Assembly: GCA_015039365.1 (NCBI GenBank)
Contig: WION01000039.1
Span: 186,001 to 250,000 of the forward strand
Length of the DNA stretch: 64,000 nt
Direction of reading: 5' to 3'
Source of the DNA: Amanita rubescens
Lineage: Eukaryota; Basidiomycota; Agaricomycetes; Agaricales; Amanitaceae
The notes beneath the pieces were generated by a model. The model was given only the letters and a program-made list of their open reading frames with translations. It did not search any database and was not told where the DNA came from. This document shows, piece after piece, positions 5,879 through 52,918 of the stretch (positions are counted from its first letter, which is position 1; every line of letters begins with the position of its first letter). The translations under genes were made by a program, and so were the position numbers.

Positions 5879-6332
5879 TGTTACAACACGGTACGGACTC
5901 CCGCATTATGCTTACATGATACGTCGGACATGTTTATTTCCTTTATGCATACCTTACTTGTCGCTCCCCTTATGCTCGATTCATACGGACTAACTCGTTT
6001 CTTTTATTATACCATCCCTTGTTCCACGTATGACGCCGTCCTTATACTTACTTTCGTACTTACCATTATTCACTAATTAGTACGTCTCTTTGTACTTGCT
6101 AGTATAAGTACCGCTTGTATTCTAGAGTCGAACCTTAAGTTCGACTTAGCTGTTTATTGTCGTCTGGCAATATAACTGTACTCTTTAAACTCATCTACCA
6201 CAATCGTCCTCAGATCCTAAGTCAACGTCTTGACTTAGTATTGAACTTATAATCTTAACGTTTGACTTAAGACTTGTAATCGTGACTAGAGTTGCCGCTG
6301 CAACTTAAGTTGAGATTAACGAGTTCGTAACA
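5879..6332 (+). repeat. 5' LTR of element A
   Basis: 454 bp, TGTTACAACACGG... to ...GTTCGTAACA. It holds the promoter: a TATA-like TATAAG at 6103 and, 33 nt downstream, the segment TAAGTTCGACTTA (6136-6148), which is complementary to the primer-binding site. U3 upstream of the TATA box contains several ATGs; the part downstream contains none. Confidence 0.96.
6103..6148 (+). promoter_or_regulatory. LTR promoter and putative transcript 5' end (self-primer)
   Basis: TATAAG at 6103 precedes TAAGTTCGACTTA (6136-6148) by 33 nt, a normal TATA-to-start distance. The 13-mer is exactly complementary to the sequence just after the LTR (6335-6347). It also sits in a near-palindrome (GTCGAACCTTAAGTTCGAC), so it could fold on itself. 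In Tf1-type elements the transcript 5' end folds back to prime reverse transcription; the same is inferred here. Confidence 0.7.
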
Positions 6333-6423: not shown

Positions 6424-7095
6424 GTTACTGGCCACGTTGTCAAAACGGATTGGAGAGCTCCACCGAATAGAGCTACACGAGATCGTAAAGGGAACTACGT
6501 TCTTGACGGATACTACGTCAGACTAAACGGTGCAAAACGAATCTGGGAAGATACAGGAGGAAATCCAGTTAAAGAACAAGAATTCTGGATACCACAAAAA
6601 GAAACTAGACCTCCGAACGAATCGTATTATTATTTTGCAGATTTATATCTTCAGGAACAGCACATCAGATTCGATCACCTCACAGAACGTTGGATAGCAT
6701 CCGAAACACAAGAATTTGTCCCTAACGAATACTTCAACACCCCCATTTGGATAAAGGGGACTGTTGACGCTCTACCAGAGAACTTAAGACCAAAAACTCT
6801 CCTTTCCATACAGACAAAAGGCAAAAAGAAAGCAAACTTTGGCCTAAACGATAGTGAATCCGAGAAAGAAGAAGAAACAGATCAAAAACCCGATCTATCT
6901 CTTGATTTTCTCAGTGACCTTTCAGTTGGAACGACACCAACACCTGCCCAACAACCGACCAATCCCGAACCAGGTCCTTCGAACCCTAAAGAAGACGAAG
7001 AAGACCCGTTTGACTCTGACAGAATCGAAGTAGACGAACCTAAACCCGATCCAACTCCACCACACAGAGATCCATCACCCCCACCATCACCAAGA
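6424..7095 (+). CDS. conserved N-terminal extension in frame with Gag, no ATG
   Basis: The frame of gag is open upstream of its first ATG, back to a TAG at 6421, and encodes about 224 residues. It includes APPNRATRDRKGNYVLDGYY, EFWIPQKETRPPNES, EFVPNEYFNTPIWIKG and a Pro/acidic tract. Element C, a diverged relative, has matching residues in the same position (PPNRATRGTRGHYYLDH, EFWIPQ..NRPPN, EFVPDDFFKGPKWIEG). Conservation at protein level argues that this is translated, yet there is no ATG in any frame from 6121 to 7095. Translation may begin at a near-cognate codon (ACG at 6445 is one in-frame candidate) or from an upstream spliced exon. An upstream frame, ELPESQPVG, just before the TAG is also shared with C. 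The extension would give a Gag of about 575 residues. Confidence 0.55.
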
Positions 7096-8154
7096 ATGTC
7101 TGGAGGAAGTACAGACCCTATACCCAACCCACGAACTCCTAGTCTCATCGGAGATCTCCCTGAATTTAAGGGGAAGCGAAAGGATGCCAATACGTTCATA
7201 GAAGATATTGAAATCTTCTTTGACATGAATCCTGAAAGGATGAATACAGACCGTTTAAAGATCCTTGCTGCCCTGAACAAGATCTCAGAAGGAGCTAGAC
7301 AGTGGAAAAAGAATAAATTAGCGGAGTTACGAAAATCACGCGCTACCGTTGAAGGAGGCGTCACAAGACCCGCTTTATTCGATGACTGGGAAGCATTCAA
7401 ACTATCATTCTTGACAGACTGGGGAGAAGTTGATCCAAGTGGAAATGCATACACGAAAATTCTCAATCTACAGAACAGATCGTCCATGAAAGGAAAGAAA
7501 CAAATGACCTTGCCTAATTACGTCAATCAGTTCAAGGAACAAATCACGAAAGCAGGAATCGAAGGAGAAGCAGCATTCCATATGTTCGGAAAAGGACTTA
7601 CAGCACCCGAGTTCGAAAAAGCAATGCTCATGAACCCAAAAACGTTACAAGATTGGTACGACATTGCTATCAAACTCGACAACATCCGAACCCGTTCATA
7701 CGCTTATTCTCCCCGATCTGGAAATGGTCATTCATCATCCTCTCACAACGACGAATCATGGGCTATGCAGATCGATCATAAATTTCTAGAACAAGAAGAA
7801 GACCCAGAACTAGAACTTATGATCAGATCTATGTCCAAAGAAGAAAGAGAACGCTACATCAAAGACGGTTTATGTTTTATCTGCGGAATCAAAGGACACA
7901 TGTCAGGGCAATGCCCGAAGAAGAAAAGAAACAAAGGGAAAGGCCGATTTAAAGGAGGGAGGAAAAGAGGATTCACGCCCAAACGTCACATTCGAGCCAC
8001 ATCAAATGATGGTGACGGAAATTGGGAAGAAGAAGAAGTCCGAGAGTCTAAACCAAATTACACCAAGAACATCCGAGCGCTGATGAAAGGGATGTCAACC
8101 GACGAAAAGAACGATCTATTACTATCTCTTGCCGATGATAACGAGGATTTTTGA
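7096..8154 (+). CDS. gag: Gag polyprotein, element A
   Basis: 352 residues from the first ATG of the inferred transcript. A retrotransposon Gag capsid-like region (FKGKRKDANTFIEDIEIFF through YDIAIKLDNI, residues about 20-200) is followed by one zinc knuckle, CFICGIKGHMSGQC (C-x2-C-x4-H-x4-C), and a basic tail that would bind RNA. Gag assembles the virus-like particle. The ORF ends ...NEDF with TGA at 8152, and pol starts in the -1 frame at the same place. The frame continues upstream without an ATG (see the extension at 6424-7095), so the true N-terminus may be longer. Confidence 0.93.
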   Translation: MSGGSTDPIPNPRTPSLIGDLPEFKGKRKDANTFIEDIEIFFDMNPERMNTDRLKILAALNKISEGARQWKKNKLAELRKSRATVEGGVTRPALFDDWEAFKLSFLTDWGEVDPSGNAYTKILNLQNRSSMKGKKQMTLPNYVNQFKEQITKAGIEGEAAFHMFGKGLTAPEFEKAMLMNPKTLQDWYDIAIKLDNIRTRSYAYSPRSGNGHSSSSHNDESWAMQIDHKFLEQEEDPELELMIRSMSKEERERYIKDGLCFICGIKGHMSGQCPKKKRNKGKGRFKGGRKRGFTPKRHIRATSNDGDGNWEEEEVRESKPNYTKNIRALMKGMSTDEKNDLLLSLADDNEDF

Positions 8155-8168
8155 CAGTGGGACTCATG
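8145..8168 (+). promoter_or_regulatory. gag/pol junction: T-run at the gag stop, -1 pol frame
   Basis: Gag ends GAT TTT TGA; pol is open in the -1 frame as TTT TTG ACA GTG. A P-site Phe tRNA could slip back one base on the five-T run at the stop codon. Element B has the same layout with TAA, and so does the relative C. A pol-frame ATG lies 12 nt after the stop, so termination and re-initiation is the alternative. Confidence 0.5.
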
Positions 8169-11100
8169 ACAGTGGATGAAGTCTCAGACACACCAGATTC
8201 AACTATCGATATATCTCATGTAACAGTACAATCTATTTCAAAACGAAGATTATCTGTCCCTATCAAAGTTGAAACTGAAAACAACACTGAAAATCTCGTT
8301 GCCCTTGTCGACTGCGGAGCCGAAGGGATATTTATCGACAAAAGAATAGCACACAAATGGAGAAAACGAAAAACTCAACGACCAATTAGAGTTTATAACG
8401 TCGATGGCACCATAAACAAAGAAGGAGAAATTGATGAACAATGTCTAATCACCTTCGAAATGAACGGAAAACGCATGACTGAATGGTTTTACGTATCAGC
8501 AATAGGAAAACAAACGGTTATACTGGGGCTTCCTTGGTTAGAGAAGCATAACCCTGACGTAAATTGGAGAGAAAAGACTCTAGAGTTCCGAGACTCTGAA
8601 CAGGACAAAATCAAGGCATCACTTCGGAGCATCTGTCAACAGATCGACAGAATAGCTATGCCTGAATGGGAAGAAAATCTCGTCATCGGATATTTGATGT
8701 CACACAAAGGATCACAGATGACAGATCACAGATGGAACACGCATACATTTGAGGATATAGGAAGCTGGTCAGAAGACGAATACGACCAAGTAACTATCGC
8801 ACGATATACACCAGCTCAACAAATGGAACACAAATACCATCAAACAGAGGAGGTTTACACGCTCCCTCCTGAATACTCGGCATGGAAAGATGTATTCGAG
8901 AAAAAAGCAAGTGAACGATTCCCGGAAAGCCGATCTTGGGATCACCAGATAGAACTTCGCGATGATTTCATACCAAAAAGAGGAAAAATCTATCCCTTAT
9001 CTCCGAAACAGCAGAACACACTGGATGAATGGATCAAAGAACATGTTGAAAAAGGCTACATCAGACCATCGAAATCGCCGCAGGCATCACCTTTCTTCTT
9101 TGTAGAGAAGAAAGAAGCACAAAAACTACGACCCTGCCAAGACTATCGATATTTGAACGAATACACTAAACCAAACGCATATCCATTACCCCTTATCTCC
9201 GATCTTATGATTAAACTCAAGGATTCGGAATACTTTACGAAATTGGATATCCGTTGGGGATATAATAACGTTCAAATCAAAGAATCTGACAGATGGAAAG
9301 CCGCCTTTATCACCAATCGAGGTTTATTTGAACCTAACGTCATGTTCTTTGGATTACGAAATTCACCAGCAACGTTCCAAGCTATGATGGACGATTATTT
9401 CAGGGATTTTACAGAAAAAGGATGGCTCGTCATCTACATGGATGACATGCTAATACACGCGCGCACTAAAGAAGAACTCGAGATTCGAACAAAACAAGTA
9501 CTTGAACGATTACAAAAACACGATCTTTACCTCAAGCTTGAAAAGTGTAAATTCGCTGCCAAAGAAGTTGATTTTCTAGGCACCGTCATATCCAAAAATA
9601 CAATAAAAATGGACCCGATCAAACTTGCCGGAATCAGGGACTGGCCAACCCCTTCTACCGTTAAACAGGTTAGATCCTTTTTAGGATTCGGAAATTACTA
9701 TCGAAGATTTATTTTCGGATTCGCCCATCTTGCACGACCCCTGCACGACCTAACAAAGAAAAACAAATTATGGACATGGACCGCAGAATGCCAAGTCGCA
9801 TTTGATCTATTAAAAGAACGCTTCACATCCGCACCTGTCTTAATGATGCCCGATGTTAACAAACCCTTCATTCTACAAACGGACGCATCAGACCGCGCTA
9901 TCGGAGCAGTTCTTATGCAGAAAGATGACAATGGCGACTTACACCCATGTGGATACCTATCCCACGCTTTAACACCGACTGAAACACGATGGCAAATCTA
10001 CGACCGAGAATTATTCGCCATTTACTACGCTCTTTACAACGAATGGAGATACCTGCTTGAAGGAGCAGAACACCCTGTCATTATTCATTGCGACCACAAG
10101 AACCTACTCTACTATCGAGAACCACAACGTCTTACAAACCGCCAAGCACGATGGTGGAACGACTTGTCTCGATTTAATATTAAATTAACGCATGTTCCTG
10201 GAACAAAACTAATAATAGCGGATGCTTTATCCCGCCGACCCGATCACATGACAAAAGATGAACCAGAAGAGTTAATAACAATGCTCCCAAAAGAACTCTT
10301 TGTTCGCACGATCGCCGAAGATCTCCGTGACAGAGCAATAGAAATAACTGTCAAAGATGAATTCGCTGAATCAATCAAGAAATGCCTAAAAGAAAAAGGA
10401 ACACCGCCTTTACGAACAGCCCTTTCTGATTGGACCCTCGACAACGAATTAATCCTATACAAAGGGAAATCTTTTATCCCTCCTAACACCGATCTTCGCC
10501 GAGATATTATTAGAGATTTTCATGAATCACCAACAAGCGGACACCCCGGTTTCTTCAAAACACTAGCCTTATTAAAGGAATATTACTGGTGGCCATTAAT
10601 GTCTAAAATGGTTAAACAGTTTATTGACGGATGCACGGCATGTCAACAAATGAAATCAAATACTCACCCTACCGCCGCACCCCTGATGCCAATCAAGTCT
10701 CACGCACACCGACCCTTCCAACAAATAACCATGGATTTCATAACCGACTTACCCATAAGTGACGGTTTTGATTCTATCTTTATCGTGGTCGATCAAGGAC
10801 TTACAAAGGGAGTAATTCTCATGCCTTGTAACAAAACTATCACCGCCGACGAAACCGCCGACCTCTACATTCGGAATGTATTCAAAAACTTCGGTTTACC
10901 CGACGTCATGATCTCCGATCGAGGACCACAGTTCGCATCACATGTCTTTAACGGCATAATGGACTCATTAAAAATCAAACACAAAATGAGTACCGCCTTC
11001 CATCCACAAACTGATGGACAAACGGAGTGATATAACGCCGAATTAGAAGCTTATCTCCGAATATTCTGTGCCTATGAACCAGATACTTGGAACAAGATGA

Positions 11101-11762
11101 TACCAATAGCACAATTCGCGCATAATTCACGCACTCATGAAGCATTGAAACAATCGCCCTTTCAATTGATGTATGGAACATCCCCGGTTGCACTTCCTCT
11201 TGTCTCAAACAAGACAAATACACCAACCGCCGATAACCGCATCAACTCCTTGTTCCGTGCACGAGAAGAAGCACTCGCCGCACATGATCTAGCACGAGCT
11301 AAGATGATGGAAAGAACAACGAGAAAGACTAAACCGTTCAAAGTCAATGACAAAGTATGGTTAGAGTCTAGGAACCTGAAGATTCCTTATCAGAGCAGAA
11401 AGCTCGCACCTAAACGAGAAGGTCCCTTTTCCATCAAAGAAGTCTTAGGACCAGTGACATATCGTCTCACGCTACCAAGACAATGGAAAATTCATAACGT
11501 ATTCCACGCCGCCTTACTAACGCCGTTCAAAGAAACTTCCTTTCACGGAATAACGGAAACAAGACCCCCTCCCGATCTGATCGAAGGAGAACAAGAATAC
11601 GAAGTGGAGGCACTGCTTGCACATCGCAAGTTTAGAGGGAAATTACAATTCCTAGTAAAGTGGAAAGGCTATGACACCAGCGAAAACACATGGGAACCAG
11701 AAAATAACTTGACGCATATGGAAGACCTCCTTCTAGAATATAAAAGACGAAGGAAACTCTGA
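8151..11762 (+). pseudogene. pol: Pol polyprotein, element A: one nonsense codon in integrase
   Basis: Domains in order: aspartic protease (LVDCGAEGIFID), reverse transcriptase (LDIRWGYNN, then YMDD in [11 protein letters not shown]), RNase H ([21 protein letters not shown]), integrase with an H-H-C-C zinc site ending CTACQQMK and core residues in TMDFITDLP, ISDRGPQF and TDGQTE, and a C-terminal chromodomain (YEVEALLAHRK to KWKGYDTSENTWEPENNL). The reading frame is open except for TGA at 11028-11030, where copies B and D read CGA: a single C-to-T at a CpG. All other positions look functional. Chromodomains are known in chromoviruses to steer integration to particular histone marks. Expression probably needs a -1 shift or re-initiation at the gag stop. 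Confidence 0.93.
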
Positions 11763-11763
11763 A

Positions 11764-13521
11764 ATGTCATTCACATACCAAGTTATTATGCAAAATGGAA
11801 ACGACACCACCGACGCCGTTCAGCACTTCCCCTGGTCTGAATTCTACGCTGGAGAGAACGCCGACACCCGACTCACCACTCTCACTGAACCCCACCGACC
11901 CCGACTCGTTCTTCATACCACCGACACCGACGAAGAAGACACTGACCCGAACGACTTCGTTGATGTTCCCTACAGATCTTCCGATCAGACCTCGTCTCAA
12001 ACGATCCCGATCACTCCCACCGAAACCCAGGAAACCCATCACGGAACATCAGAAACTCTGGCTGTACCTGGACGAATTACGGAAGATCGCAATAGCCGAC
12101 CGATCCCACCTAGAAACGCTGAAGATATTAGCGTTACCTTACATAGAGAGACGGTATCTGCCGGTCACGCTTCGACTCAATCTAATAACGAATCTATTCG
12201 AGGCAACGACCAGAGTCACGGTACAGATGGGACTAACCGCGATATGGCTGGCTCCATCATACGAACCACCCCCGATCTCTATCTCAGTTATCACGGAATT
12301 ACTACGTACACCAAGGTTAGAGACCGCGTCACTCTGATCTGTAACACCGCTAGATTACAGGTCGACGTATTTGACCAAGAAAGGATAGCTCGAGTTTGGC
12401 GACTTCTCATGGACTTCCGAACCGCCACTACCCTTGCCGGTCAAGCCCGAGATCAGTACAATTATCATTGTGCCGATTTAATCGAAACGTTTGTAAACGT
12501 TACGTCACTATACTGGGAAGACGTTCATCCGAAAGGAGGAAACCTGGATCAATTGGCAATAGATCTATTACGACGACTTCTCACAGCTGACATCGAGCGC
12601 TATATCATCCTTGCCATAGAAAGCATTGACGATCAAAGGTTTGGACTAAAAATACAGCCCCACGATCAGAATAACCGCATCGCTGTCAACCATTGGTTTC
12701 GCGCTACCGAAGCTACACCCGACCGACACCGAGCAACTAGATGCATTATGGAGACAGATCGTAAATCGAGAGAAATCTGGTGCCTCACCGGAAAGATCCG
12801 AGACCTCTTGTCTAGTATCCAAGGAGACACAGAATGGACTACAGCCGAATTCGCAGATGGAGTTCCCTTGCATCAACTCACTAGCGACCACATTGCGCAG
12901 ATCAATAATGCGATCAGCGATCTCGATCTTCATCGCCGAATCCGTACAACAGGCGATCTCATTGAGGAAGAACCGAAACGAGATAAGAAGGCTCCTCCTC
13001 CTCCTCGATCCGCATCACCCCCAACCACCACCGTTATTCGCCACGGAGTCTGGAATATTCCTGTCCCCACTACTCGACGACACGACACTCCGCCTGCTCG
13101 ACGACCTACGACCCGCAGTATGACAAATGCCACCAACCAACGCCCTCACCGTTACAACCGCTGCATCCACTGCCGAGGTAAACATGCCTCTGAGGATCAC
13201 CATCTTGCTACTGCAATTCCTCCTATGTCTACTCTACCTCCACGCGCTCCCACGCGCCGACGCGATCCGACGCCCGGTCCTTCCACTAAGAAGAAAGGAC
13301 GTTCTCGAATTACCACAGATGCCGCCAATACCCCCGCTTCCACTAGCCGCCGCCCTCATCAGCCGAAGAAGAAGGGAAAGAAGAAGGCACACCACGCGTC
13401 ACAGTGTCAGGCATGCGTCAACGGACGACAGTGCGACGGAGCCGACGACGACGCCTGCGATCTTTACGGCGACTACGGCTATCAGCACGACGACGACGCC
13501 ATGCACAACATGAACACTTGA
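11764..13521 (+). CDS. third ORF after pol (ORF3), element A, unknown function
   Basis: 585 residues, starting one base after the pol stop (TGA then A then ATG). It is present in the same place in B and D. An N-terminal part rich in Thr, Asp and Pro precedes a helical-looking middle (RVWRLLMDFRTATTLAGQAR, about residues 180-390), a Pro/Arg-rich linker, a knuckle-like CIHCRGKHASEDH and a C-terminal Cys cluster (CQACVNGRQCDGADDDAC). Comparison of A, B and D shows the middle (12310-13165) and the end (13400-13521) evolving mostly by synonymous changes in this frame. In about 12010-12275, and in a short part near 13220-13260, the +1 frame is the conserved one. Its position is that of env in some gypsy elements, but this frame has no signal peptide or membrane segment. 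I know of no family it matches. Confidence 0.75.
   Translation: MSFTYQVIMQNGNDTTDAVQHFPWSEFYAGENADTRLTTLTEPHRPRLVLHTTDTDEEDTDPNDFVDVPYRSSDQTSSQTIPITPTETQETHHGTSETLAVPGRITEDRNSRPIPPRNAEDISVTLHRETVSAGHASTQSNNESIRGNDQSHGTDGTNRDMAGSIIRTTPDLYLSYHGITTYTKVRDRVTLICNTARLQVDVFDQERIARVWRLLMDFRTATTLAGQARDQYNYHCADLIETFVNVTSLYWEDVHPKGGNLDQLAIDLLRRLLTADIERYIILAIESIDDQRFGLKIQPHDQNNRIAVNHWFRATEATPDRHRATRCIMETDRKSREIWCLTGKIRDLLSSIQGDTEWTTAEFADGVPLHQLTSDHIAQINNAISDLDLHRRIRTTGDLIEEEPKRDKKAPPPPRSASPPTTTVIRHGVWNIPVPTTRRHDTPPARRPTTRSMTNATNQRPHRYNRCIHCRGKHASEDHHLATAIPPMSTLPPRAPTRRRDPTPGPSTKKKGRSRITTDAANTPASTSRRPHQPKKKGKKKAHHASQCQACVNGRQCDGADDDACDLYGDYGYQHDDDAMHNMNT
11795..12337 (+). CDS. overlapping +1-frame ORF within ORF3 (ORF3a), element A
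   Basis: 180 residues from its own ATG (METTPPTPF), in the +1 frame of ORF3. It is open in all three copies: A, B (41908-42450) and D (46451-46993). The first half is Pro/Ser/Thr-rich; the second half looks like a folded helical domain (EHQKLWLYLDELRKIAIADR, LALPYIERRYLPVTLRLNL, VQMGLTAIWLAPSYEPP). Between A and D I count 11 substitutions in about 12010-12280: 10 are synonymous here and only 1 is synonymous in the ORF3 main frame. The pattern reverses near 12306. It could be a separate overlapping protein, or the true N-terminal region joined to the main frame by a -1 shift, for example near the C-run at 12269-12273. Confidence 0.6.
   Translation: METTPPTPFSTSPGLNSTLERTPTPDSPLSLNPTDPDSFFIPPTPTKKTLTRTTSLMFPTDLPIRPRLKRSRSLPPKPRKPITEHQKLWLYLDELRKIAIADRSHLETLKILALPYIERRYLPVTLRLNLITNLFEATTRVTVQMGLTAIWLAPSYEPPPISISVITELLRTPRLETASL
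13127..13513 (+). CDS. second overlapping +1-frame ORF at the ORF3 3' end, signal-peptide-like
   Basis: 128 residues, open in A and D (45275-45661) and shortened to 79 residues in B. It contains MPLRITILLLQFLLCLLYLH followed by ALPRADA, which has the layout of a cleavable signal peptide or membrane anchor, and then a Pro/Arg-rich tail. In 13215-13260 the substitutions separating A from D (GCA/ACA, ATG/GTG, CTA/TTA, CCT/TCT, CCA/ACA, CCC/TCC) are all synonymous in this frame while five of six change ORF3. Outside this short stretch the main frame is the more conserved one. Weaker evidence than for the first overlapping ORF. Confidence 0.35.
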   Translation: MPPTNALTVTTAASTAEVNMPLRITILLLQFLLCLLYLHALPRADAIRRPVLPLRRKDVLELPQMPPIPPLPLAAALISRRRRERRRHTTRHSVRHASTDDSATEPTTTPAIFTATTAISTTTTPCTT

Positions 13522-13561: not shown

Positions 13562-14015
13562 TGTTACAACACGGTACGGACTCCCGCATTATGCTTACAT
13601 GATACGTCGGACATGTTTATTTCCTTTATGCATACCTTACTTGTCGCTCCCCTTATGCTCGATTCATACGGACTAACTCGTTTCTTTTATTATACCATCC
13701 CTTGTTCCACGTATGACGCCGTCCTTATACTTACTTTCGTACTTACCATTATTCACTAATTAGTACGTCTCTTTGTACTTGCTAGTATAAGTACCGCTTG
13801 TATTCTAGAGTCGAACCTTAAGTTCGACTTAGCTGTTTATTGTCGTCTGGCAATATAACTGTACTCTTTAAACTCATCTACCACAATCGTCCTCAGATCC
13901 TAAGTCAACGTCTTGACTTAGTATTGAACTTATAATCTTAACGTTTGACTTAAGACTTGTAATCGTGACTAGAGTTGCCGCTGCAACTTAAGTTGAGATT
14001 AACGAGTTCGTAACA
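13562..14015 (+). repeat. 3' LTR of element A
   Basis: 454 bp. It reads the same as the 5' LTR throughout by eye, so the insertion is recent. It is followed by the second copy of the CCTCC target duplication (14016-14020). Confidence 0.96.
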
Positions 14016-30499: not shown

Positions 30500-32139
30500 A
30501 ACCGGCCCGTAGGTTACCGGTCAGCCTGCAACAATTTCGGATCAACAGAGAACACCGCCTAATCGTGCTACAAGAGGAACAAGAGGACATTATTATCTAG
30601 ATCACATCGCTATCTACAACGACCCTAAGGATCACCTTTGGAAATATTCGAAAGACCACAGTCTCGTACCAACATCAGAGTTTTGGATACCACAGAGAGC
30701 CAATAGACCACCCAACAACGCATTTTATCATCGATTCAACGACAAATACTATCTCCTAGGATTTGAAGTCGAATTCGACGAAAATACCAAACGTTGGGGA
30801 GGATATAACCCAGGCCCTGAATCAGAACTCACATACGAATTTGTACCAGACGATTTCTTCAAAGGACCAAAGTGGATAGAAGGAAACCCAGATAACTTGC
30901 CCGAAAGCCTACAGCACAGAAGCGCAGTTTCTACACCGAAAGCAGCAGTCAAAGCCACACCAAAAGGTAAAACTTTTGGAGTAACAGAAGAAAGCGAATC
31001 AGGAACCGAATCAAGTGACGAAAACCCCGATCAGCAATTCGAAAGTTCCAGTGACCTTTCCGAGTCGGAAGACAAAGCTGTTCCAGACTTACTTAGCCCA
31101 ATCGATTTCAACCCGTTTGAAACAGAACAGGAGAAACCGAATTCCCCAGGACTTCAGTACATAGAAGTCGATCCTAAACCCGATCCTAGTCCAGGACCAC
31201 CAGTACCACCACAGAAACCGCCTACACCACCTCCAGAACCACCAATAGCCACAATGACGACGCCAGCAGTACAACCGATTCCTAGTCTCTTAGGAGAAAT
31301 CCCTACCTTTACAGGAAAGCGATCTCAAGCACAGGATTTCATAGATCGAATGGAGCTATTCCTAGATCTCAATCCAGGTCGCATCAACACGGACAGACTT
31401 AAAATCGGACTGACGTTATCTATGATAACCAACAAAGCTGAAAACTGGAGACGCAATCAAAATGACGATCTTAATGATGCAACAAAGACAGAAATAACAT
31501 GGAACAACTGGACAGGATTCAAAACCAGATTCCTCAACAATTGGCAAGAAATAGATTCACCCGGAAACGCGTACACAGAATTAGTACAGCTTCAGAAACA
31601 CAAAGACAAGAAAGGAAAACGAATCTCAATCCCAAAATACGTTGGTTTATTCAAAGAACTTATAAAGAAAGCTGGAATCACAGGCAGTGCCGCTACCCAC
31701 ATGTTCGGACAAGGACTCGACGCCAACACATACAGAGCAGTCGTAATGAGAGACCCCAAAACCTTGGACGAATGGTATGAAGGAGCACTCAGAGCATACA
31801 ACGCCGAAACATGTATTGGCATTCTAGCAACCAACAGAGGAGGAACATCGTCGCACAAACCCCCTCGAAACGAATGGGATATGGATCTCGATGCAATAAT
31901 TCTTGGCGCGTTATCAAAGGATGAACGAACCCGACATATCCGTGATGGACTTTGTTTCATATGTCATAAACCGGACCACATGTCAGGACAATGTCCAATG
32001 AGGAAGGATAAAGGATCTTACAAAGGGAAGAAGAAGTTTAATGGAAAGAAAGGAAAGAAATTCGCACACGGTCGTCATATTCGAGCAACCGAAAGAGATG
32101 ACGATGGCAGTAACTATGAAGACGTCGAAGAGTCTAGCC
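30500..32139 (+). pseudogene. gag: Gag of element C with ATG-free N-terminal extension, cut by hAT
   Basis: The first ATG in frame is 31254 (MTTPAVQPIPSLLGEIP), followed by a capsid-like region (FTGKRSQAQDFIDRMELFL) and a zinc knuckle, CFICHKPDHMSGQC. Upstream, the same frame is open back to about 30500 and encodes PPNRATRGTRGHYYLDH, EFWIPQRANRPPNNAFY and EFVPDDFFKGPKWIEG, conserved with element A; no ATG occurs in 30422-31253. hAT inserted after GTCTAGCC (32132-32139). Reading on into hAT gives a false tail ending at 32261. The true C-terminus resumes at 35778. Confidence 0.8.
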
Positions 32140-35100
32140 TAGGGAATGGGAGGGGTTTGGGAAACCCCGGGGTTTTTATGGAGGGTTTTGAAGGGGCAGG
32201 GGTAGGGGTTGGAGGTGCCCAACCCCTCCCAACCCTCCACCCCTCCGGGGGTTTTGCCTGATGCACAGCCACTCAAGTAGCTTACATAACATGTTACTTC
32301 CGAGATGATTCAGATAAAACATAGATATAGAGATAAACAACTTTTTCGTGACCGACAGTCCCTAATGAGCTCCAGCAAGGAAGCTCGCAAGCGTAAAGCA
32401 TCTACAAGGCTCGCTGAAAGTGACGAGGCCCTTGCAAAGAAGCTTCGCCATGCAGATAACGACAGGCTGGCACCTCCGTCACTGGCACCTCCGTCTCCAG
32501 CCTCAACTACATCTAACTTATCTCGACAAACATCTGCATCTTCCCTTCAATCTCATCATGCAACCCCACCCAGATCTCCTAGTCCTACCGAAGATGTTCG
32601 CGATGATGATGCCAAGGCACCTGATAACGATGCCGAGGATGATAACGACGATGGTGGGCAACCCAGAAACTTAGGGGACTCTCAAGACAAACTAGGTGCA
32701 TCATTATATCTGATATCGTGATCAACGTCAACTAAGTCCCGGTAGACAAGCTATATAAGACCTACAAATCTCCCATATACGTTTTCTTCCTACCACCCAC
32801 ATACGGGAAGGAGAATAAAAAGCGCTTCCACATTTTTGAATGTGCGGCAAAGGTTTGCCGGAATACAAAAGGCCGGTTGGTCAAGCGTAACATCGATTCC
32901 GCAAATGCGACATCTACGTCTAATTTGAAGGCTCACGCTACCCGGTGCTATGGTAAGGACATAGTAGATGCAGCCCTGACCGTGAAGAGTCTTGATCAAG
33001 CCCGAAATGTGCTGAAGGACAAGAATAATCTACGAAACGGGTCAATTGCATTGGCCTTTCAAAAAGCAGGGCAAGAGACCGTTACTTACCCAACAACTAC
33101 CCCTACAAATCTTGAAGTACGTGTAAACCACGTTAAATGGATATGCGAGAGTCAACGGCCTTTCGCGATCGTCAACGATAAGGGCTATCATCGTAATATG
33201 AAGACGGGGAGGCCTCACCAATACATTCCACCCGCCGATACTGTCTCCCGTGATGCACGATATGTCTTTGTTCGGGCCCGGGAGAAGATAGCAAAACTAT
33301 TAAAGGTAGGTTGTCGGTATATCACGTTTTTGAAGGCATCGGAAAATGACTCACCTCTGAGGAACACCATGGCGCGCTACATTTCGGCACCGACTGTTGG
33401 ACCTCACCTAATCGTCGTGCTTACATGGCCATCACGGTGCAATACGAGACTGATGGTATTGTCAGTGAGTGGTTGCTTGACATAGTAGAGGTGGGGAGGC
33501 GGCACTTTGAAAAGGTTCTAAATGATTTTGGTATCTCAAACAAGGTAAATCATAGTTCGGCTCGTAAGATAACACTCGGACTTACTGCCATATTTAGATT
33601 CTCGCGATAACGTGCGATAATGCCTCAAACAACGAAGTCATGGTCGAAGAACTCAGAGATAGACTAAGTTCCTTTGGTGGAGAGGCCTCACGAGTCCGAT
33701 GTTTTGCACACATCATTAATCTAGTAGCGAAAAGTGTCATTTCTCAGTTCGATACACCAAAAAAGAAGGGACAAAGCAGAAATCAGGCAAATCAAGATGA
33801 TGTTGCTGCAGCAGGTGGCGACAACGACTCCGATCTTCAAGATCTGCTGGCAGAAATCAGTGATCTGGCCGGTGATCACGGGGAGGATGAATTGGATGAG
33901 CTGGATGACTCGGAGGTACCGCCGGAAGATCGAGAGAAAGACAAAGATGACGGCTGGATTGATGAGCGGAGGAGCATGCTGAGCGAGGAGCTGAAAGCGT
34001 TGGAGAGAGACGTGCTGCCTGCGAGACGAATGTTAGTCAAGGTATGTACGTCCACATTTGGCATGCCAAGGCAATGTGCCCTTGTTGGTCCACATTTATG
34101 CGTTGTTGGTCCACGTTTGCATTAGCCTGTGCCGCACAGGCGCCGCTGGGTACCGGGTTCGACTAACGACCTCTCTAAATAGCTACGCAAAGTCGCCTAT
34201 GCACTCAAGAACTCACCAACTGTTGCTACTCCCCGTTGGAGGGAAATCTGCGAGACATGTGGCCTAGATGACAAGAACATGCCCCGGGATGTCAGCACCC
34301 GATGGAACTCAACTTATCAGATGCTCGAGTTTGCGATAAAGTACCGGACTGTCATCGACATGCTCACAAGCGAGCGCGCCCTGGATCTGAGAAAATATGA
34401 AGTGGATGACGAGGAATGGATCCTCGCTACGCAACTGTGCAAAGTGCTCAAGGTGAGTACAGTATTCAGTGCCGTGCGCTCAATGCACGCTCGAGAATAA
34501 TTAACTAACCGTTACTTAATAGGTATTCAATGATGCGACCGCTTACTTCTCAAGATCCAAGATCTCAAACATCACGAGCGTAATACCCGCAATAGACCAT
34601 TTCGATGAAGTCTTAGCATCGGCAATGGTATCAATTGAATACTCGGCAGCCATCCATGCAGCCGTTAGGATCGGAAAGCGCACGCTCAATCGCTACTACA
34701 GCAAAACTGACTATTCCGACGTGTACCGCATCGCAATGAGTACGCTAAATTACTTTCACTCACTTGGTACATTACTTACAAACCTAACATCAGTACTTGA
34801 TCCCCGGTACAAGTTATCATACTTTCGGAAGATGAAATGGGAAGAGAACTGGATAACTGAAGCCCAGAGACTCGTAAAGGAAGTACTAACAAAATATACC
34901 AACGACGATGCTCGCCATGACTCTGAAGATGACAACGATGTAATCATGGTGCGTGACTCTTTTATATACTATAGTATATTGTTTTTGTAATTGTACTGAC
35001 TTCAAAATCCTCGGTACCAGCTTGATAACCCCCAACTCCGCATTGAGCGCACCTCGGTTTCGGAGAATATGTTTGAAAAGTTCATCACGGAGACTCAGAC

Positions 35101-36430: not shown

Positions 36431-37205
36431 ATTAAGTCGAACTTATCAATAAGCCTGAACATCGATTCATTGGCATTTGATAACATACACTTCGACGAAC
36501 TTCCGGAAAGCCAGCCCGTAGGTTACTGGCCACGTTGTCAAAACGGATTGGAGAGCTCCACCAAATAGAGCTACACGAGATCGTAAAGGGAACTACGTTC
36601 TTGACGGATACTACGTCAGACTAAACGGTGCAAAACGAATCTGGGAAGATTTAGGAGGAAATCCAGTTAAAGAACAAGAATTCTGGATACCACAAAAAGA
36701 AACTAGACCACTGAACGAATCATATTATTATTTCGCAGATCTATATCTTCAGGAACAGCACATCAGATTCGATCACCTTACAGAACGTTGGATAGCATCC
36801 GAAACACAAGAATTTGTCCCTAACGAATACTTCAACACCCCTACTTGGATAAAAGGGACTGTTGACGCTCTACCAGAGAACTTAAGACCGAGAACTCTCC
36901 TCCCCACATCGACAACTACAAAAGGCAAAAAGAAAGCAAACTTTGGCCTAAACGATAGTGAATCCGAGAAAGAAGGAGATACAGATCAAAAACCCGATCT
37001 ATCCCTTGATTTTCTCAGTGACCTTTCAGTTGGAATGACACCAACACCTGCCCAACAACCGACCAATCCCGAATCAGGTCCTTCGAACCCTAAAGAAGAA
37101 AAGGACGACGAAGACCCGTTTGACTCTGACAGAATCGAAGTAGACGAACCTAAACCCGACCCAACTCCACCACGTAGAGATCCATCACCCCCACCATCAC
37201 CAAGA

Positions 37206-38264
37206 ATGTCTGGAGGAAGTACAGACCCTATACCCAACCCACGAACCCCTAGTCTCATCGGAGATCTTCCTGAATTCAAAGGGAAGCGAAAGGATGCCAA
37301 TACATTCATAGAAGACATTGAAATTTTCTTTGACATGAATCCTGAGCGGATGAATACCGACCGCTTAAAAATCCTTGCCGCCCTGAATAAGATCTCAGAT
37401 GGAGCTAGACAGTGGAAAAAGAATAAATTAGCAGAACTACGAAAATCTCGCGCCACCACCGAAGGAGGCATCACGAGACCTGCTTTATTTGATGATTGGG
37501 AAGCATTTAAACTGTCATTCTTGACAGACTGGGGAGAAGTAGATCCGAGTGGAAACGCATACACGAAAATTCTCAATCTACAGAACAGATCGTCTATGAC
37601 AGGAAAGAAACAGATGACCCTACCTAATTACGTAAATCAGTTCAAGGAACAAATCACGAAAGCCGGAATCGAAGGAGAAGCAGCATTCCATATGTTTGGA
37701 AAAGGACTTACAGCACCAGAATTCGAAAAAGCAATGCTCATGAACCCAAAAACGTTACAAGATTGGTACGACATTGCTATCAAACTCGACAACATCCGAA
37801 CCCGTTCATATGCTTATTCACCTCGATCTGGAAATGGTCATTCATCATCTTCTCACAACGACGAATCTTGGGCAATGCAGATCGATCACAAATATCTAGA
37901 AAAAGATGAAGATCCAGAATTGGAACTTATGATCAGATCTATGACCAAAGAAGAAAGAGAACGCTATATCAGAGACGGTTTATGTTTCATCTGCGGAATC
38001 AAAGGACACATGTCAGGGCAATGCCCAAAGAAGAAAAGAAACAAAGGGAAAGGCCGATTTAAAGGAGGAAAGAAAAGAGGATTCATGCCCAAACGTCACA
38101 TTCGAGCCACATCAGAAGATGGTGATAGAAATTGGGAAGAAGAAGAAGTCCGAGAGTCTAAACCAAATTACACCAAGAACATCCGAGCGCTGATGAAAGG
38201 AATGTCAATCGACGAAAAGAATGATCTATTACTATCTCTTGCCGATGATAATGAGGATTTTTAA
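37206..38264 (+). CDS. gag: Gag, element B
   Basis: 352 residues, nearly identical to A: capsid-like region and zinc knuckle CFICGIKGHMSGQC. The upstream frame is open as in A. An in-frame ATG at 37035 arose where A and D have ACG, so this copy could start there (409 residues). Stop TAA; pol follows in the -1 frame. Confidence 0.9.
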   Translation: MSGGSTDPIPNPRTPSLIGDLPEFKGKRKDANTFIEDIEIFFDMNPERMNTDRLKILAALNKISDGARQWKKNKLAELRKSRATTEGGITRPALFDDWEAFKLSFLTDWGEVDPSGNAYTKILNLQNRSSMTGKKQMTLPNYVNQFKEQITKAGIEGEAAFHMFGKGLTAPEFEKAMLMNPKTLQDWYDIAIKLDNIRTRSYAYSPRSGNGHSSSSHNDESWAMQIDHKYLEKDEDPELELMIRSMTKEERERYIRDGLCFICGIKGHMSGQCPKKKRNKGKGRFKGGKKRGFMPKRHIRATSEDGDRNWEEEEVRESKPNYTKNIRALMKGMSIDEKNDLLLSLADDNEDF

Positions 38265-41876: not shown

Positions 41877-43634
41877 ATGTCATTCACATACCAAGTTACT
41901 ATGCAGAATGGAAACGACACTACCGACGCCGTTCAGCACTTCCCCTGGTCCGAATTTTATGCTGGAGAGACCGTTGACACCCAATTCACCACTTCCGCTG
42001 GACCCCACCGACCTCGACTCGTTCTTCATACCACCGACACTGACGAAGAAGACGCTGACCCGAACGACTTCGTTGATGTTCCCCACGGATCTTCCGATCA
42101 GACCTCGTCTCAGACGATCCCGATCACTCCCACCGAAACCCAGGAAACCCACCACGGAACATCAGAAACTCTGGCTGTACCTGGACGAATTACGGAAGAT
42201 CGCAATAGCCGACCGATCCCACCTAGAAATGCTGAAGACATTAGCGTTACCTTACATAGAGAGACGATACTTGCCGGTCACGCTTCGACTCAATCTCATA
42301 ACGAACCTATTCGAAGCAACGACCAGAGTCACGGTACAGATGGGACTAACCGCGATATGGCTAGCTCCATCATACGAACCACCCCCGATCTCTATCTCAG
42401 TTATCACGGAATTACTACTTACACCAAGGTTAGAGACCGCGTCACTCTGATCTGTAACGCCACTAGATTACAAGTCGACATCTTTGACCAAGAAAGGATA
42501 GCTCGAGTCTGGCGACTTCTCATGGATTTCCGAACCGCCACTACCCTTGCCGGTCAAGCCCGAGATCAGTACAACTATCACTGTGCCGACTTAATCGAAA
42601 CGTTTGTGAATGTTACGTCACTATACTGGGAAGATGTTCATCCGAAAGGAGGAAATCTAGATCAACTGGCGATAGATCTATTACGATGACTTCTCACAGC
42701 TGACATCGAGCGCTATATCATCCTTGCTATAGAAAGCATTGACAATCAAAGGTTTGGATTAAAAATACAGCCTCACGATCAGAATAACCGCATCACTGTC
42801 AACCATTGGTTTCGCGCTACCGAAGCTACACCCGACCGACACCGAGCAACTAGATGGATTATGGAGACAGATTGTAAATCAAGAGAAATCTGGTGCCTCA
42901 CCGGAAAGATCCGAGATCTCTTGTCCAGTATCCAAGGAGACACGGAATGGACCACAGCCGAATTCGCAGATGGAGTTCCCCTGCATCAACTCACTAGCGA
43001 CCACATTGCGCAGATCAATAATGCGATCAGCGATCTCGATCTTCATCGCCGAATCCGTACAACAGGCGATCTCATTGAGGAAGAACCGAAACGAGATAAG
43101 AAGGCTCCTCCTCCTCCTCGATCCGCATCACCCCCAACCACCACCGTTATTCGCCACGGAGTCTGGAATATTCCTGTCCCCACTTCTCGACGAAACGACA
43201 CTCCGCCTTCTCGACGACCTACGACCCGCAGTATGACTAATGCCGCCAATCAACGCCCCCACCGCTACAACCGTTGCATTCACTGCTGAGGTAAACATGC
43301 CTCTGAGGATCACCATCTCGCTACTACAGTTCCTCCTGTGTCTACTCTATCTACACGCGCTCCCACGCGCCGACGTGATCCGATGCCCGGTCCTTCCACT
43401 AAGAAGAAAGGATGTTCTCGAACTACCACAGATGCCGCCAATACCTCCGCTTCCACTAGCCGCCGCCCTCACCAGCTGAAGAAGAAGGGAAAAAAGAAGG
43501 CACACCACGCGTCACAGTGTCAGGCATGCGTCAATGGACGACAGTGCGACGGAGCCGACGACGACGCCTGCGACCTTTATGGTGACTACGGCTATCAGCA
43601 CAACGACGACGCCATGCACAACATGAACACCTGA
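41877..43634 (+). pseudogene. ORF3 of element B, two nonsense codons
   Basis: Homologous to 11764-13521, with TGA at 42687-42689 and 43287-43289 (both CGA in A). Comparison with A gives about 16 synonymous main-frame changes in 42450-42790, so this part was under protein-level selection before decay. Confidence 0.85.
41908..42450 (+). CDS. overlapping +1-frame ORF (ORF3a), element B
   Basis: 180 residues from METTLPTPF, still open although the main frame of this copy is broken downstream. In the A/B comparison of 12000-12260, 7 of 10 substitutions are synonymous in this frame and 3 in the main frame. The helical second half (KLWLYLDELRKIAIADRSHL) is almost unchanged. Confidence 0.5.
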   Translation: METTLPTPFSTSPGPNFMLERPLTPNSPLPLDPTDLDSFFIPPTLTKKTLTRTTSLMFPTDLPIRPRLRRSRSLPPKPRKPTTEHQKLWLYLDELRKIAIADRSHLEMLKTLALPYIERRYLPVTLRLNLITNLFEATTRVTVQMGLTAIWLAPSYEPPPISISVITELLLTPRLETASL

Positions 43635-43674: not shown

Positions 43675-44126
43675 TGTTACAACACGGTACGGACTCCCGC
43701 ATTATGCTTACATGATACGTCGGACATGTTTATTTTCTTTATGTATACCTTACTCGTCGTTTCCCTTATGCTCGATTCATACGGACTAACTCGCTTCCTT
43801 ACTTATACCATCCCTTGTTCCATATATGATGCCGTCCTTATACTTACTTTCGTACTTACCATTATTCATTAATTAGTACGTCTCATTGTACTTGCTAGTA
43901 TAAGTACTGCCTGTATTCTAGAGTCGAACCCTAAGTTCGACTTAGCTGTTTATTGTCGTCTGGCAATATAACCTTACTCTTAACTCATCTACCACAATCG
44001 TCCTCAGATCCTAAGTCAACGCTCTGACTTAGTATTGAACTTATAATCTTAACGTTTGACTTAAGACTTGTAATCGTGACTAGAGTTGCCGCTGCAACTT
44101 AGGTTGAGATTAACGAGTTCGTAACA
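43675..44126 (+). repeat. 3' LTR of element B
   Basis: 452 bp, preceded by the same purine tract as A. The GTAAT target duplication follows at 44127. Confidence 0.95.
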
Positions 44127-44773
44127 GTAATAGTACATTCTATTTCAAGCAATCGATTATCTATTCCCCTCGAAGTTGAAACCGAAGACAACACTGAATC
44201 AATGACTGCACTGGTCGACAGCGGTGCAGAAGGTTTATTTATCAATTCATCAATCGCGCACAAATGGAGAAAGAAGAAACTCGCAAGACCAATCCGAGTC
44301 AAGAACGTTGACGGCACATATAATACGAATGGAGAAATTTCTGACAAGTGTTTGATCACCATCGACATCAATGGAAAAAAGATGACCGAATGGTTCTTGG
44401 TCACTTTGCTTGGCGATCAAAACTTGATACTGGGGCTTCCATGGCTCGAGAAGCATGACCCAATTATAAGCTGGAGGAATAGAACTCTGGAGTTCCATAA
44501 CTCCAAAGAAGACGAATGGAAGGCATCAATACGGAGCATCTTGCATCGACTCGATGAAGAAGCAATGCCTAAATGGGAAGAAGACGTCGTAATTCGGTAT
44601 TTGTTGTCACACAAAGGACCAGAAGAGAAGAGTCTAAGTTGGAAACCACCATTTGAAGACATAGGAAGATGGACTGAAGAAGATTATGACGAGATCACAA
44701 TTAATCGCTACTCACCAGCTCAACAAATGGAACATAAGTACAACACCGATCAGAAGGAAATCACGCTACCTCC

Positions 44774-45226
44774 TGTTACGAACTCGTTAATCTCAACCTA
44801 AGTTGCAACGGCAACTCTAGTCACGATTACAAGTCTTAAGTCAAACGTTTAAGATTATAAGTTCAATACTAAGTCAAGGCGTTGACTTAGGATCTGAGGA
44901 CGATTGTGGTAGATGAGTTAAGAGTAAGGTTATATTGCCAGACGACAATAAACAGCTAAGTCGAACTTAGGGTTCGACTCTAGAATACATGCGGTATTTA
45001 TACTAGCAAGTACAATGAGACGTACTAATTAATGAATAATGGTAAGTACGGAAGTAAGTACAAGGACGGCGTCATATGTGGAACAAGGGATGGTATAAAC
45101 AAGGAAACGAGTTAGTCCGTATGAATCGAGCATAAGGGGAACGGCGAGTAAGGTATGCATAAAGAAATTAAACATGTCCGACGTATCATGTAAGCATAAT
45201 GCGGGAGTCCGTACCGTGTTGTAACA
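44774..45226 (-). repeat. 3' LTR of element D
   Basis: 453 bp, reverse orientation, next to the purine tract (minus strand GGGGAGAGCTAG). Nearly identical to 52466-52918. Confidence 0.95.
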
Positions 45227-45266: not shown

Positions 45267-47000
45267 TTAAGTGTTCATGTTGTGCATGGCGTCGTCGTCG
45301 TGCTGATAGCCGTAGTCGCCATAAAGGTTGCAGGCGTCGTCGTCGGCTCCGTCGCACTGTCGTCCATTGACACATGCCTGACACTGTGACGCGTGGTGTG
45401 CTTTCTTCTTTCCCTTCTTCTTCGGCTGATGAGGGCGGCGGCTAGTGGAAGCGGGGGTATTGGCGGCATCTGTGGTAACTTGAGAACGTCCTTTCTTCTT
45501 AGTGGAAGGACCGGGCGTTGGATCATGTCGGCGCGTGGAAGCGCGTGTAGATAAAGTAGACACAGGAGGAATTGTAGTAGCGAGATGGTGATCCTCAGAG
45601 GCATGTTTACCTCGGCAGTGGATGCAGCGGTTGTAACGGTGGGGGCGTTGGTTGGCGGCATTAGTCATACTGCGGGTCGTAGGTCGTCGAGAAGGTGGAG
45701 TGTTGCTTCGTCGAGTAGTGGGGACAGGAATATTCCAGACTCCGTGGCGAATAACGGTGGTGGTTGGGGGTGATGCGGATCGAGGAGAAGGAGGAGCCTT
45801 CTTATTTCGTTTCGGTTCTTCCTCAGTGAGATCGCCTGTTGTACGGATTCGGCGATGAAGATCGAGATCGCTGATCGCATTATTGATCTGCGCAATGTGG
45901 TCGCTAGTGAGTTGATGCAGGGGAACTCCGTCTGCGAATTCAGCTGTAGTCCATTCTGTGTCCCCTTGGATACTGGACAGGAGATCTCGGATCTTTCCAG
46001 TGAGGCACCAGATTTCTCTTGATTTACGATCTGTCTCCATAATCCATCTAGTTGCTCGGTGTCGGTCGGGTGTAGCTTCGGTAGCGCGAAACCAATGATT
46101 GACGGCGATGCGGTTATTCTGATCATGGGGCTGTATTTTTAGTCCAAACCTTTGATCGTCAATGCTTTCTATAGCAAGGATGATATAGCGCTCGACGTCA
46201 GCTGTGAGAAGTCGTCGTAATAGATCTATCGCCAGTTGATCCAGGTTCCCTCCTTTCGGATGAACGTCTTCCCAGTATAATGACGTAACGTTTACAAACG
46301 TTTCGATTAAATCGGCGCAGTGATAGTTGTATTGATCTCGGGCTTGACCGGCAAGGGTAGTGGCGGTTCGGAAATCCATAAGGAGTCGCCAGACTCGAGC
46401 TATCCTTTCTTGGTCAAAGATGTCGACCTGTAATCTAGCGGCGTTACAGATCAGAGTGACGCGGTCTCTAACCTTGGTGTAAGTAGTAATTCCGTGATAA
46501 CTGAGATAGAGATCGGGGGTGGTTCGTACGATGGAGCCAGCCATATCGCAGTTAGTCCCATCTGTACCGTGACTCTGGTTGTTGCCTCGAATAGATTCGT
46601 TATGAGATTGAGTCGAAGCGTGACTGGCAAGTACCGTCTCTCTATGTAAGGTAACGCTAATGTCTTCAGCGTTTCTAGGTGGGATCGGTCGGCTATTGCG
46701 ATTTTCCGTAATTCGTCCAGGTACAGCCAGAGTTTCTGATGTTCTGTGATGGGTTTCCTGGGTTTCGGTGGAAGTGATCGGGATCGTCTGAGACGAGGTT
46801 TGATCGGGAGATCTGTGGGGAACATCAACGAAGTCGTTCGGGTCAGCGTCTTCTTCGTCGGTGTCGGTGGTATGAAGAACGAGTCGAGGTCGGTGGGGTT
46901 CAGCGGAAGTGGTGAATCGGGTGTCGATAGTCTCTCCAGCATAGAATTCGGACCAGGGGAAGTGCTGAACGGCGTCGGTGGTGTCGTTTCCATTCTGCAT
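45267..47000 (-). CDS. ORF3 of element D, open
   Basis: 577 residues from MQNGNDTTDAVQHF; the ATG used in A is ATA here. The same regions as in A are visible: helical middle, CIHCRGKHASEDH and the C-terminal Cys cluster. That this ORF is intact while pol of the same copy is damaged fits either its youth or separate selection. The overlapping +1 frame is also open. Confidence 0.75.
   Translation of the reverse strand: MQNGNDTTDAVQHFPWSEFYAGETIDTRFTTSAEPHRPRLVLHTTDTDEEDADPNDFVDVPHRSPDQTSSQTIPITSTETQETHHRTSETLAVPGRITENRNSRPIPPRNAEDISVTLHRETVLASHASTQSHNESIRGNNQSHGTDGTNCDMAGSIVRTTPDLYLSYHGITTYTKVRDRVTLICNAARLQVDIFDQERIARVWRLLMDFRTATTLAGQARDQYNYHCADLIETFVNVTSLYWEDVHPKGGNLDQLAIDLLRRLLTADVERYIILAIESIDDQRFGLKIQPHDQNNRIAVNHWFRATEATPDRHRATRWIMETDRKSREIWCLTGKIRDLLSSIQGDTEWTTAEFADGVPLHQLTSDHIAQINNAISDLDLHRRIRTTGDLTEEEPKRNKKAPPSPRSASPPTTTVIRHGVWNIPVPTTRRSNTPPSRRPTTRSMTNAANQRPHRYNRCIHCRGKHASEDHHLATTIPPVSTLSTRASTRRHDPTPGPSTKKKGRSQVTTDAANTPASTSRRPHQPKKKGKKKAHHASQCQACVNGRQCDGADDDACNLYGDYGYQHDDDAMHNMNT
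45275..45661 (-). CDS. overlapping +1-frame ORF with hydrophobic leader, element D
   Basis: 128 residues, homologous to 13127-13513. Its hydrophobic run (MPLRITISLLQFLLCLLYLH) is kept although the main frame differs from A at several residues. Confidence 0.3.
   Translation of the reverse strand: MPPTNAPTVTTAASTAEVNMPLRITISLLQFLLCLLYLHALPRADMIQRPVLPLRRKDVLKLPQMPPIPPLPLAAALISRRRRERRKHTTRHSVRHVSMDDSATEPTTTPATFMATTAISTTTTPCTT
46451..46993 (-). CDS. overlapping +1-frame ORF (ORF3a), element D
   Basis: 180 residues. Compared with A, the second half differs by two residues here but by about nine in the main frame, which is the key evidence that this frame is translated. Confidence 0.55.
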   Translation of the reverse strand: METTPPTPFSTSPGPNSMLERLSTPDSPLPLNPTDLDSFFIPPTPTKKTLTRTTSLMFPTDLPIKPRLRRSRSLPPKPRKPITEHQKLWLYLDELRKIAIADRSHLETLKTLALPYIERRYLPVTLRLNLITNLFEATTRVTVQMGLTAIWLAPSYEPPPISISVITELLLTPRLETASL

Positions 47001-47025
47001 AGTAACTTGGTATGTGAATGGTATC

Positions 47026-52465: not shown

Positions 52466-52918
52466 TGTTACGAACTCGTTAATCTCAACCTAAGTTGCAA
52501 CGGCAACTCTAGTCACGATTACAAGTCTTAAGTCAAACGTTTAAGATTACAAGTTCAATACTAAGTCAAGGCGTTGACTTAGGATCTGAGGACGATTGTG
52601 GTAGATGAGTTAAGAGTAAGGTTATATTGCCAGACGACAATAAACAGCTAAGTCGAACTTAGGGTTCGACTCTAGAATACATGCGGTATTTATACTAGCA
52701 AGTACAATGAGACGTACTAATTAATGAATAATGGTAAGTACGGAAGTAAGTACAAGGACGGCGTCATATGTGGAACAAGGGATGGTATAAACAAGGAAAC
52801 GAGTTAGTCCGTATGAATCGAGCATAAGGGGAACGGCGAGTAAGGTATGCATAAAGAAATTAAACATGTCCGACGTATCATGTAAGCATAATGCGGGAGT
52901 CCGTACCGTGTTGTAACA
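52466..52918 (-). repeat. 5' LTR of element D
   Basis: 453 bp. It contains the promoter TATAAATA and the self-primer segment (52649-52661). CCTCC follows at 52919. Confidence 0.95.

Follow-up and report, generated by a model that had tools for sequence, protein, structure and literature searches.

Within the window, a stretch of 64,000 nucleotides of the Amanita rubescens genome (contig WION01000039.1, positions 186,001 to 250,000), lies an element that we assign to the Ty3/gypsy chromodomain LTR retrotransposons because of its Pfam pol domains (RVT_1, RT_RNaseH_2, Integrase_H2C2, rve and Chromo, all above the Pfam cut-off) and its identical LTR stretches (5879-6178 and 13562-13861, 300 nt reported). 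The pol domains are arranged in the order RT, RNase H, integrase and C-terminal chromodomain, and in this first window copy pol contains an in-frame TGA at 11028-11030. The gag-like ORF gave weak matches (Table 1); Ty3_capsid was found above the cut-off in the gag ORF of another element at 30513-32258. Directly after pol comes a third ORF, ORF3, which holds a long main frame and, overlapping it in the +1 frame, ORF-a, ORF-b and ORF-c. A Pfam search with the main frame and with each of these three gave no match.

ORF3 is present three times in the window, as copy 1 (from 11764), copy 2 (from 41850) and copy 3 (45267-47051, minus strand). The LTR stretches of the third copy (44774-45073 and 52466-52765) are identical across 300 nt, and this copy likely sits inside a related element (flanking pieces 44103-44801 and 52892-53962), as a recent nested insertion. 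An antisense ORF of 211-213 codons is found within gag of all three window copies, at 6882-7517 (minus strand), 36986-37627 (minus strand) and 51269-51910 (plus strand). Another element has ORFs inserted after its gag-like ORF, at 32736-34990; judged by eye, they presumably resemble a hAT-type transposase.

Table 1. Features of the element, with emphasis on ORF3 (window positions; counts and w values are for the family A copies)
Feature	Position	Strand	Evidence
gag-like ORF, 576 aa	6424..8154	+	zinc knuckle (zf-CCHC) E 0.0053, Ty3_capsid E 0.012; weak, both under Pfam cut-offs
pol: RT, RNase H, integrase, chromodomain	8142..11762	+	RVT_1, RT_RNaseH, Integrase_H2C2, rve, SH3_Tf2-1, Chromo above cut-off
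Paired start codons ATGCAAAATGG	11788..11798	+	main ATG 11788, +1 ATG 11795; both in 47/47 copies
Main-frame ORF3, 577 aa from ATG 11788	11788..13521	+	homologues P0001 and P0002 likewise start MQN
ORF-a, overlapping +1-frame ORF, 180 aa	11795..12337	+	intact in 46/47; +1 w 0.41 (0.29-0.57) over 11795-12303; homologue P0033
Predicted helical hairpin, ORF-a residues 84-152	12044..12250	+	AlphaFold2, 4-sequence alignment, pTM 0.35
Conserved helical domain, main frame	12304..12933	+	main w 0.14 (0.09-0.20); AlphaFold2 of 12295-12960, mean pLDDT 74.7
ORF-b, second +1-frame block, start uncertain	12908..13123	+	+1 w 0.32 (0.16-0.59) in 12934-13113, where selection is clear
Putative 60-nt intron GTATGA...GAG, would join ORF-b to ORF-c	13118..13177	+	GT and AG in 47/47 copies
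ORF-c, third +1-frame block	13184..13515	+	+1 w 0.29 (0.16-0.49) in 13184-13353; intact in 43/47
ORF-a, second window copy	41908..42450	+	translation
ORF-a, third window copy	46451..46993	-	translation

Methods

The genome searched comprised 75.7 Mb in 786 contigs. A search with the +1-frame protein returned 122 match rows, some of which are pieces of one copy. For the family of the window, here called family A, 74 sequences were matched; 8 partial sequences were excluded, and the 66 full ones reduced to 44 distinct sequences. Five divergent copies brought the set to 49, from which L080 and L082 were excluded as degenerate and frameshifted, leaving 47 copies that form part of the 122-row family. 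Mean pairwise divergence of these 47 ORF3 copies is 5.1%, with a maximum of 13.3%. Family B was represented by 11 places chosen from the main-domain match list; 66 match rows are listed for that family in all. The pol control was drawn from nearly the same copies as the ORF3 set (67 sequences, 45 distinct). Substitutions were mapped by parsimony onto the tree and classed per frame, and expectations were derived from the measured mutation spectrum, including CpG. Counts on terminal branches take in the decay of dead copies. Mapped changes numbered 1562 in the 1758 nt of ORF3 (11764-13521, 47 copies) and 271 in 870 nt of pol (10890-11759, 45 copies); change seems to be quicker in ORF3 than in pol, although the five extra divergent copies of the ORF3 set account for part of the difference.

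Results

The +1 ATG at 11795 follows the main ATG by seven bases and is flanked by A at position -3 and G at position +4. An earlier ATG at 11764 is present in 37 of the 47 copies only. An earlier note on this DNA, made from the window alone, had described the +1 ORF as open in all copies. This is nearly so: it is intact in all of the 47 but one, and of the 122 genome match rows 11 list a stop. The main frame, three times longer, is intact in 39. The length of ORF-a is not exceptional given the main protein, since shuffling the synonymous main codons gave an ORF at least as long in 72 of 2000 trials, and ORF length by itself is therefore weak evidence.

Substitutions between the window copies are unevenly spread over the two frames. 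In 12010-12280, copies 1 and 3 differ by 11 substitutions, 10 of them synonymous in the +1 frame and 1 in the main frame, and copies 1 and 2 by 10, with 7 and 3 synonymous, respectively; both recounts reproduce the figures first reported. Main-frame synonymy in 12306-12720, likewise reported there, applies to 18 of 21 differences between copies 1 and 3 and 18 of 24 between copies 1 and 2. Equal rates in the two frames would count against an overlapping gene, and among the 47 copies they are unequal: across 11854-12303, spectrum-corrected w is 0.33 in the +1 frame (bootstrap 0.22-0.48) versus 1.52 in the main frame (1.04-2.35). This region is under purifying selection on the +1 frame and under none on the main frame.

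The tree of the 47 copies gives the same preference on both kinds of branches. In 12010-12290, internal branches carry 39 changes, of which 31 are synonymous in the +1 frame and 4 in the main frame, and terminal branches carry 148, with 99 and 31. When the internal changes of 12001-12300 are sorted by their effect on the two frames, 31 are silent in +1 and change the main protein (11.9 expected), 3 are silent in main and change the +1 protein (12.7 expected), and 5 change both (12.1 expected). When every changed site enters the count a single time, the +1 third codon position, with a neutral share of 0.33, accounts for 19 of the 27 internal sites of 12001-12303 (P=6.7e-5); the corresponding value for internal branches across 11854-12303 is P=2.1e-5. 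Indels in the overlap among the 47 copies have lengths of 24, 6 and 3 bases. A hidden overlapping protein under selection, one of the two readings proposed in the earlier note, is strongly supported. The signal ends before the ORF does: over 12304-12333, the final 30 bases of ORF-a, there is no +1 selection, with 0 +1-silent and 6 main-silent changes, and such fading is expected if this end is free or spliced away.

That the +1 frame is the one selected holds across 11854-12303, but the main frame of the overlap is not idle. At 11794-11853, around a PWSEFYAG motif, main w is 0.24, and within the motif (11824..11853, plus strand) 25 changes are main-silent and +1-changing versus 3 of the reverse kind. 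P0002, a public protein, has the MQN start and the PWS..AG motif as well. Of the 232 +1-silent changes in 11795-12303, 5 create a main-frame stop against 20.3 expected (P=3.4e-5), and all 5 lie on terminal branches; on internal branches there are 0 of 63 (5.5 expected). In 12001-12303, openness of the main frame was the only constraint detected on it among the 47 copies, with no amino-acid constraint. Because of this stop avoidance, the main-frame selection at 11794-11853 and the motifs shared with P0002, both frames appear to be read. Beyond the overlap, in 12304-12933, the preference is reversed (main w 0.14, +1 w 1.33), and per-frame w in the 47 copies gives no sign of a hidden frame there. 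Nearer its end, the main frame carries a CX2CX3HX4H (CCHH) motif at 13162-13200, which recurs in P0002-P0010, and a cysteine cluster at about 13400-13470, both under main-frame selection.

A single +1 block had been described. That block is real, and family A has three, the others being at 12934-13113 and 13184-13353. For ORF-b there are two candidate starts, ATG 12908, found in 47 of 47 copies, and ATG 12857, lost in 10 of 47 through five T>C changes on the tree. Between ORF-b and ORF-c, at the CCHH motif, selection acts on the main frame only (13124-13183, main w 0.14). Main-silent variation is seen at 13179 and 13182 and is absent from 13183-13199, which implies that the constraint begins at ATG 13184. 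The N-terminus of ORF-c, MPLRITILLLQFLLCLLYLHALPRADA, is hydrophobic and signal-peptide-like, with a Kyte-Doolittle mean of 2.04 over residues 1-19 (hydropathy was computed for ORF-b and ORF-c only). Past 13353, ORF-c is without +1 selection (+1 w 2.32 in 13354-13521).

The only match to the family A ORF-a protein in the public protein set is P0033, known as a protein only, with 51% identity across 74% of the query and 48% in the alignment. AlphaFold2 places helices at residues 84-118 and 124-152, and 10-residue means of pLDDT are 85-91 over residues 81-150 and below 50 over residues 1-60. The protein is predicted to be disordered at its N-terminus and to form a helical hairpin over residues 84-152, and the predicted helices coincide with the DNA in which +1 selection is strongest. 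A comparison of the model with solved structures gave no significant match.

Family B, whose main ORF3 domain is 31-32% identical to that of family A, has the same layout, with paired ATGs seven bases apart (ATGAATCATGG), both present in 11 of 11 copies. In its block a (L072 685-1178), +1 w is 0.38 (0.25-0.57) and main w is 1.79, and none of 100 +1-silent changes creates a main-frame stop (6.9 expected, P=7.7e-4). As in family A, +1 selection is absent from the end of ORF-a (1299-1389; main w 0.06, +1 w 4.39). Stops interrupt ORF-a in 2 of the 11 copies used and in 16 of the 66 rows overall, leaving 50 of 66 without one. A divergent relative, L083, has a stop in its main frame and still encodes a +1 protein 51% identical to that of L072. 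Farther downstream, family B carries an ORF in the +2 frame (L072:1937-2311), coiled-coil-like by eye, whose ATG is kept in 11 of 11 copies and which is under strong selection (+2 w 0.15, 0.07-0.29, and main w 2.86 in L072 2019-2318). Homology between the ORF-a proteins of the two families was not detected by hhalign (probability 1.3, E 0.041) or BLASTP, and a protein search with the family B ORF-a gave no match at E<=1.

Several other explanations were weighed against a separately initiated +1 protein. Blocks a, b and c could be exons of an alternatively spliced +1 mRNA, which would encode a single larger hidden protein ending in the hydrophobic ORF-c. The +1 frame is common to all three blocks, ATG 12857 has been lost repeatedly, +1 selection weakens ahead of the ORF-a stop, and the in-frame 60-nt GT...AG segment at 13118-13177 matches the gap in which only the main frame is selected. 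However, 13179 and 13182 vary in the +1 frame and constraint starts at ATG 13184, present in 47 of 47 copies; the GT and AG are also within conserved main codons, and a GAG acceptor is of a rare type. An intron from a to b would measure about 570-585 nt, which is long for a fungus, and the downstream block of family B is in the +2 frame with an ATG of its own. We regard splicing as an unlikely account of the blocks, but one compatible with the best explanation, as ORF-a could be made both ways. More doubtful still is the fusion that the earlier note had offered as its alternative, widened here to include splicing and an upstream main frame that is junk: the ORF3 protein would begin with ORF-a as its N-terminal domain, and either a programmed -1 shift or a splice near 12270-12337 would lead into the main frame. 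It would account for the change from +1 to main selection around 12304, and one copy, L081, has ORF-a and the main frame in one 457-aa frame through an indel. This copy (C321:176800-179800) lies just upstream of the window; its indel is near the end of ORF-a and its fused frame then enters unrelated sequence, so that it probably represents decay. In the overlap, however, main-frame stops are depleted, and the main frame is selected at 11794-11853 and shares MQN and PWS..AG with P0002; since it must stay open, a frameshift or splice that discards it does not fit. The C-run that had been pointed out in the switch interval is unchanged in 47 of 47 copies, but it reads ACCCCCG, which is not a canonical slippery site, and the reference copy has no X XXY YYZ heptamer in 12150-12337. 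The favoured frame switches four more times downstream (near 12934, 13114, 13184-13204 and 13354), a pattern that one shift cannot explain.

An artefact of copy selection, of mutation bias (CpG decay) or of recombination is very improbable. Thirty loci (L009-L038) were ranked by likeness to the +1 protein, and C>T and CpG changes dominate. Nevertheless, a 35-copy subset not ranked in this way, consisting of the copies from the main-frame query, the window copies and the five chosen for divergence, has 28 +1-silent/main-changing versus 2 main-silent/+1-changing changes on the internal branches of 12001-12303. Neither query covers any of block c, and only 27 of the 180 bases of block b fall within the main-frame query, but the signal is present in both blocks, as it is in the second family, chosen from the main-domain list. 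The expectations already contain the measured spectrum with CpG, and the signal persists when each site is counted once. In the pol control (10890-11639, 45 copies), pol w is 0.06-0.13 and the other frames give 1.90-23.7 in five of five windows. Hardly any weight can be given to an antisense gene with its third codon positions on the same class of sites. Its silent count on the internal branches of 11854-12303 equals that of the +1 frame (60 of 91), but antisense stops stand at 12049 (44 of 47 copies) and 12139 (47 of 47) in block a, at 13015 (44 of 47) in block b, at 13234 (46 of 47) in block c, and at 2056 and 2083 of L072 in family B. Stops kept in 44-47 of 47 copies refute a single antisense ORF. 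The sense frame also fits better, with 21 versus 11 silent internal changes in block b and 34 versus 28 in block c.

Discussion

The best explanation, to which we give a probability of about 0.8, is that ORF3 is overprinted by the +1 frame at 11795-12337, which is conserved as code and likely encodes a separate small helical protein with a predicted start at the second ATG. Selection strongly supports an overprinted accessory gene in this retrotransposon; its expression is not proven. We infer that both frames may be translated from one shared mRNA, likely by dual initiation, in which some ribosomes would pass the main ATG at 11788 by leaky scanning and choose the ATG at 11795. ORF-b and ORF-c would repeat the overprinting downstream of ORF-a, and the hidden products are provisionally taken to be accessory factors of the element. 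The blocks show a division of labour between the frames, the hidden frame being informative where the main protein looks low-complexity, and absent or weak at conserved main motifs such as 12304-12933 and the CCHH motif at 13162-13200.

This kind of gene is known from viruses, and here it is in the ORF3 of a Ty3-type retrotransposon. Retroviruses have tat/rev/env overlaps, and in NB/NA of influenza B two ATGs seven bases apart open two frames, both products of which are proven. The paired ATGs of ORF3 resemble those of NB/NA, but the ORF3 products are predictions. In the available passages of PMC3542737, NB/NA is named only in a reference. Viral overprinted accessory genes, the subject of two reviews (PMC8227390, PMC3744397), share with ORF-a a second protein in a shifted frame, an accessory character and a place near the 3' end of the element; they differ in that the element here is a Ty3/chromodomain LTR retrotransposon with no env identified, and its overlaps are in a third ORF without assigned function. 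Competition between close start codons has precedents. In yeast, initiation is subject to competition between neighbouring AUGs in different frames when they are no more than about 17 nt apart, as described in the available text of PMC9743702, and initiation is likewise shared among close AUGs in different frames in the triple coding of SRD5A1 (PMC13352861, available in part); the former concerns a reporter library with no mobile element, however, and the latter a host gene.

Extra proteins beyond gag and pol have been described for other LTR retrotransposons. CERV is an accessory protein of Cer1, an LTR retrotransposon of C. elegans, and is the product of a spliced mRNA; no overlapping frame is mentioned in the abstract, the part of this source considered here (PMC10309623). 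Plant LTR retrotransposons may carry extra ORFs, in sense or antisense, in the interval from pol to the 3' LTR (PMC7264820, available in part). These occupy the same place as ORF3 and some are in sense, but in the passages available they are not described as two frames sharing bases, and the word 'overlap' has no hits in its text (PMC7264820). An antisense gene of Boty-like elements in fungi is mentioned in the reference list of the same article. Among the best-ranked literature matches, which leave most subscription literature uncovered, no title or opening of an abstract describes a fungal LTR retrotransposon with an overlapping gene in its third ORF, which is weak evidence that none has been reported.

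A broader reading, for and against which we see even odds, is that the ORF3 lineage is an overprinting nursery in which a new protein arises in another frame wherever the main protein is disordered. Of the three +1 blocks of family A, the first would then encode the helical hairpin protein and the third a small membrane protein of signal-peptide-like character, and family B would have a +1 protein at the paired ATGs together with an unrelated-looking, coiled-coil-like +2 protein. If this is true, a single gene of the transposon would supply several accessory proteins, much as in a virus. In viruses, overprinting is common and is a well-known route to new proteins, but the intermediates seldom survive. 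The genome studied here contains scores of copies in two families with graded divergence, and constraint and conflict between frames are therefore directly measurable. Annotation of LTR retrotransposons by the longest ORF may overlook the very frame that selection sees.
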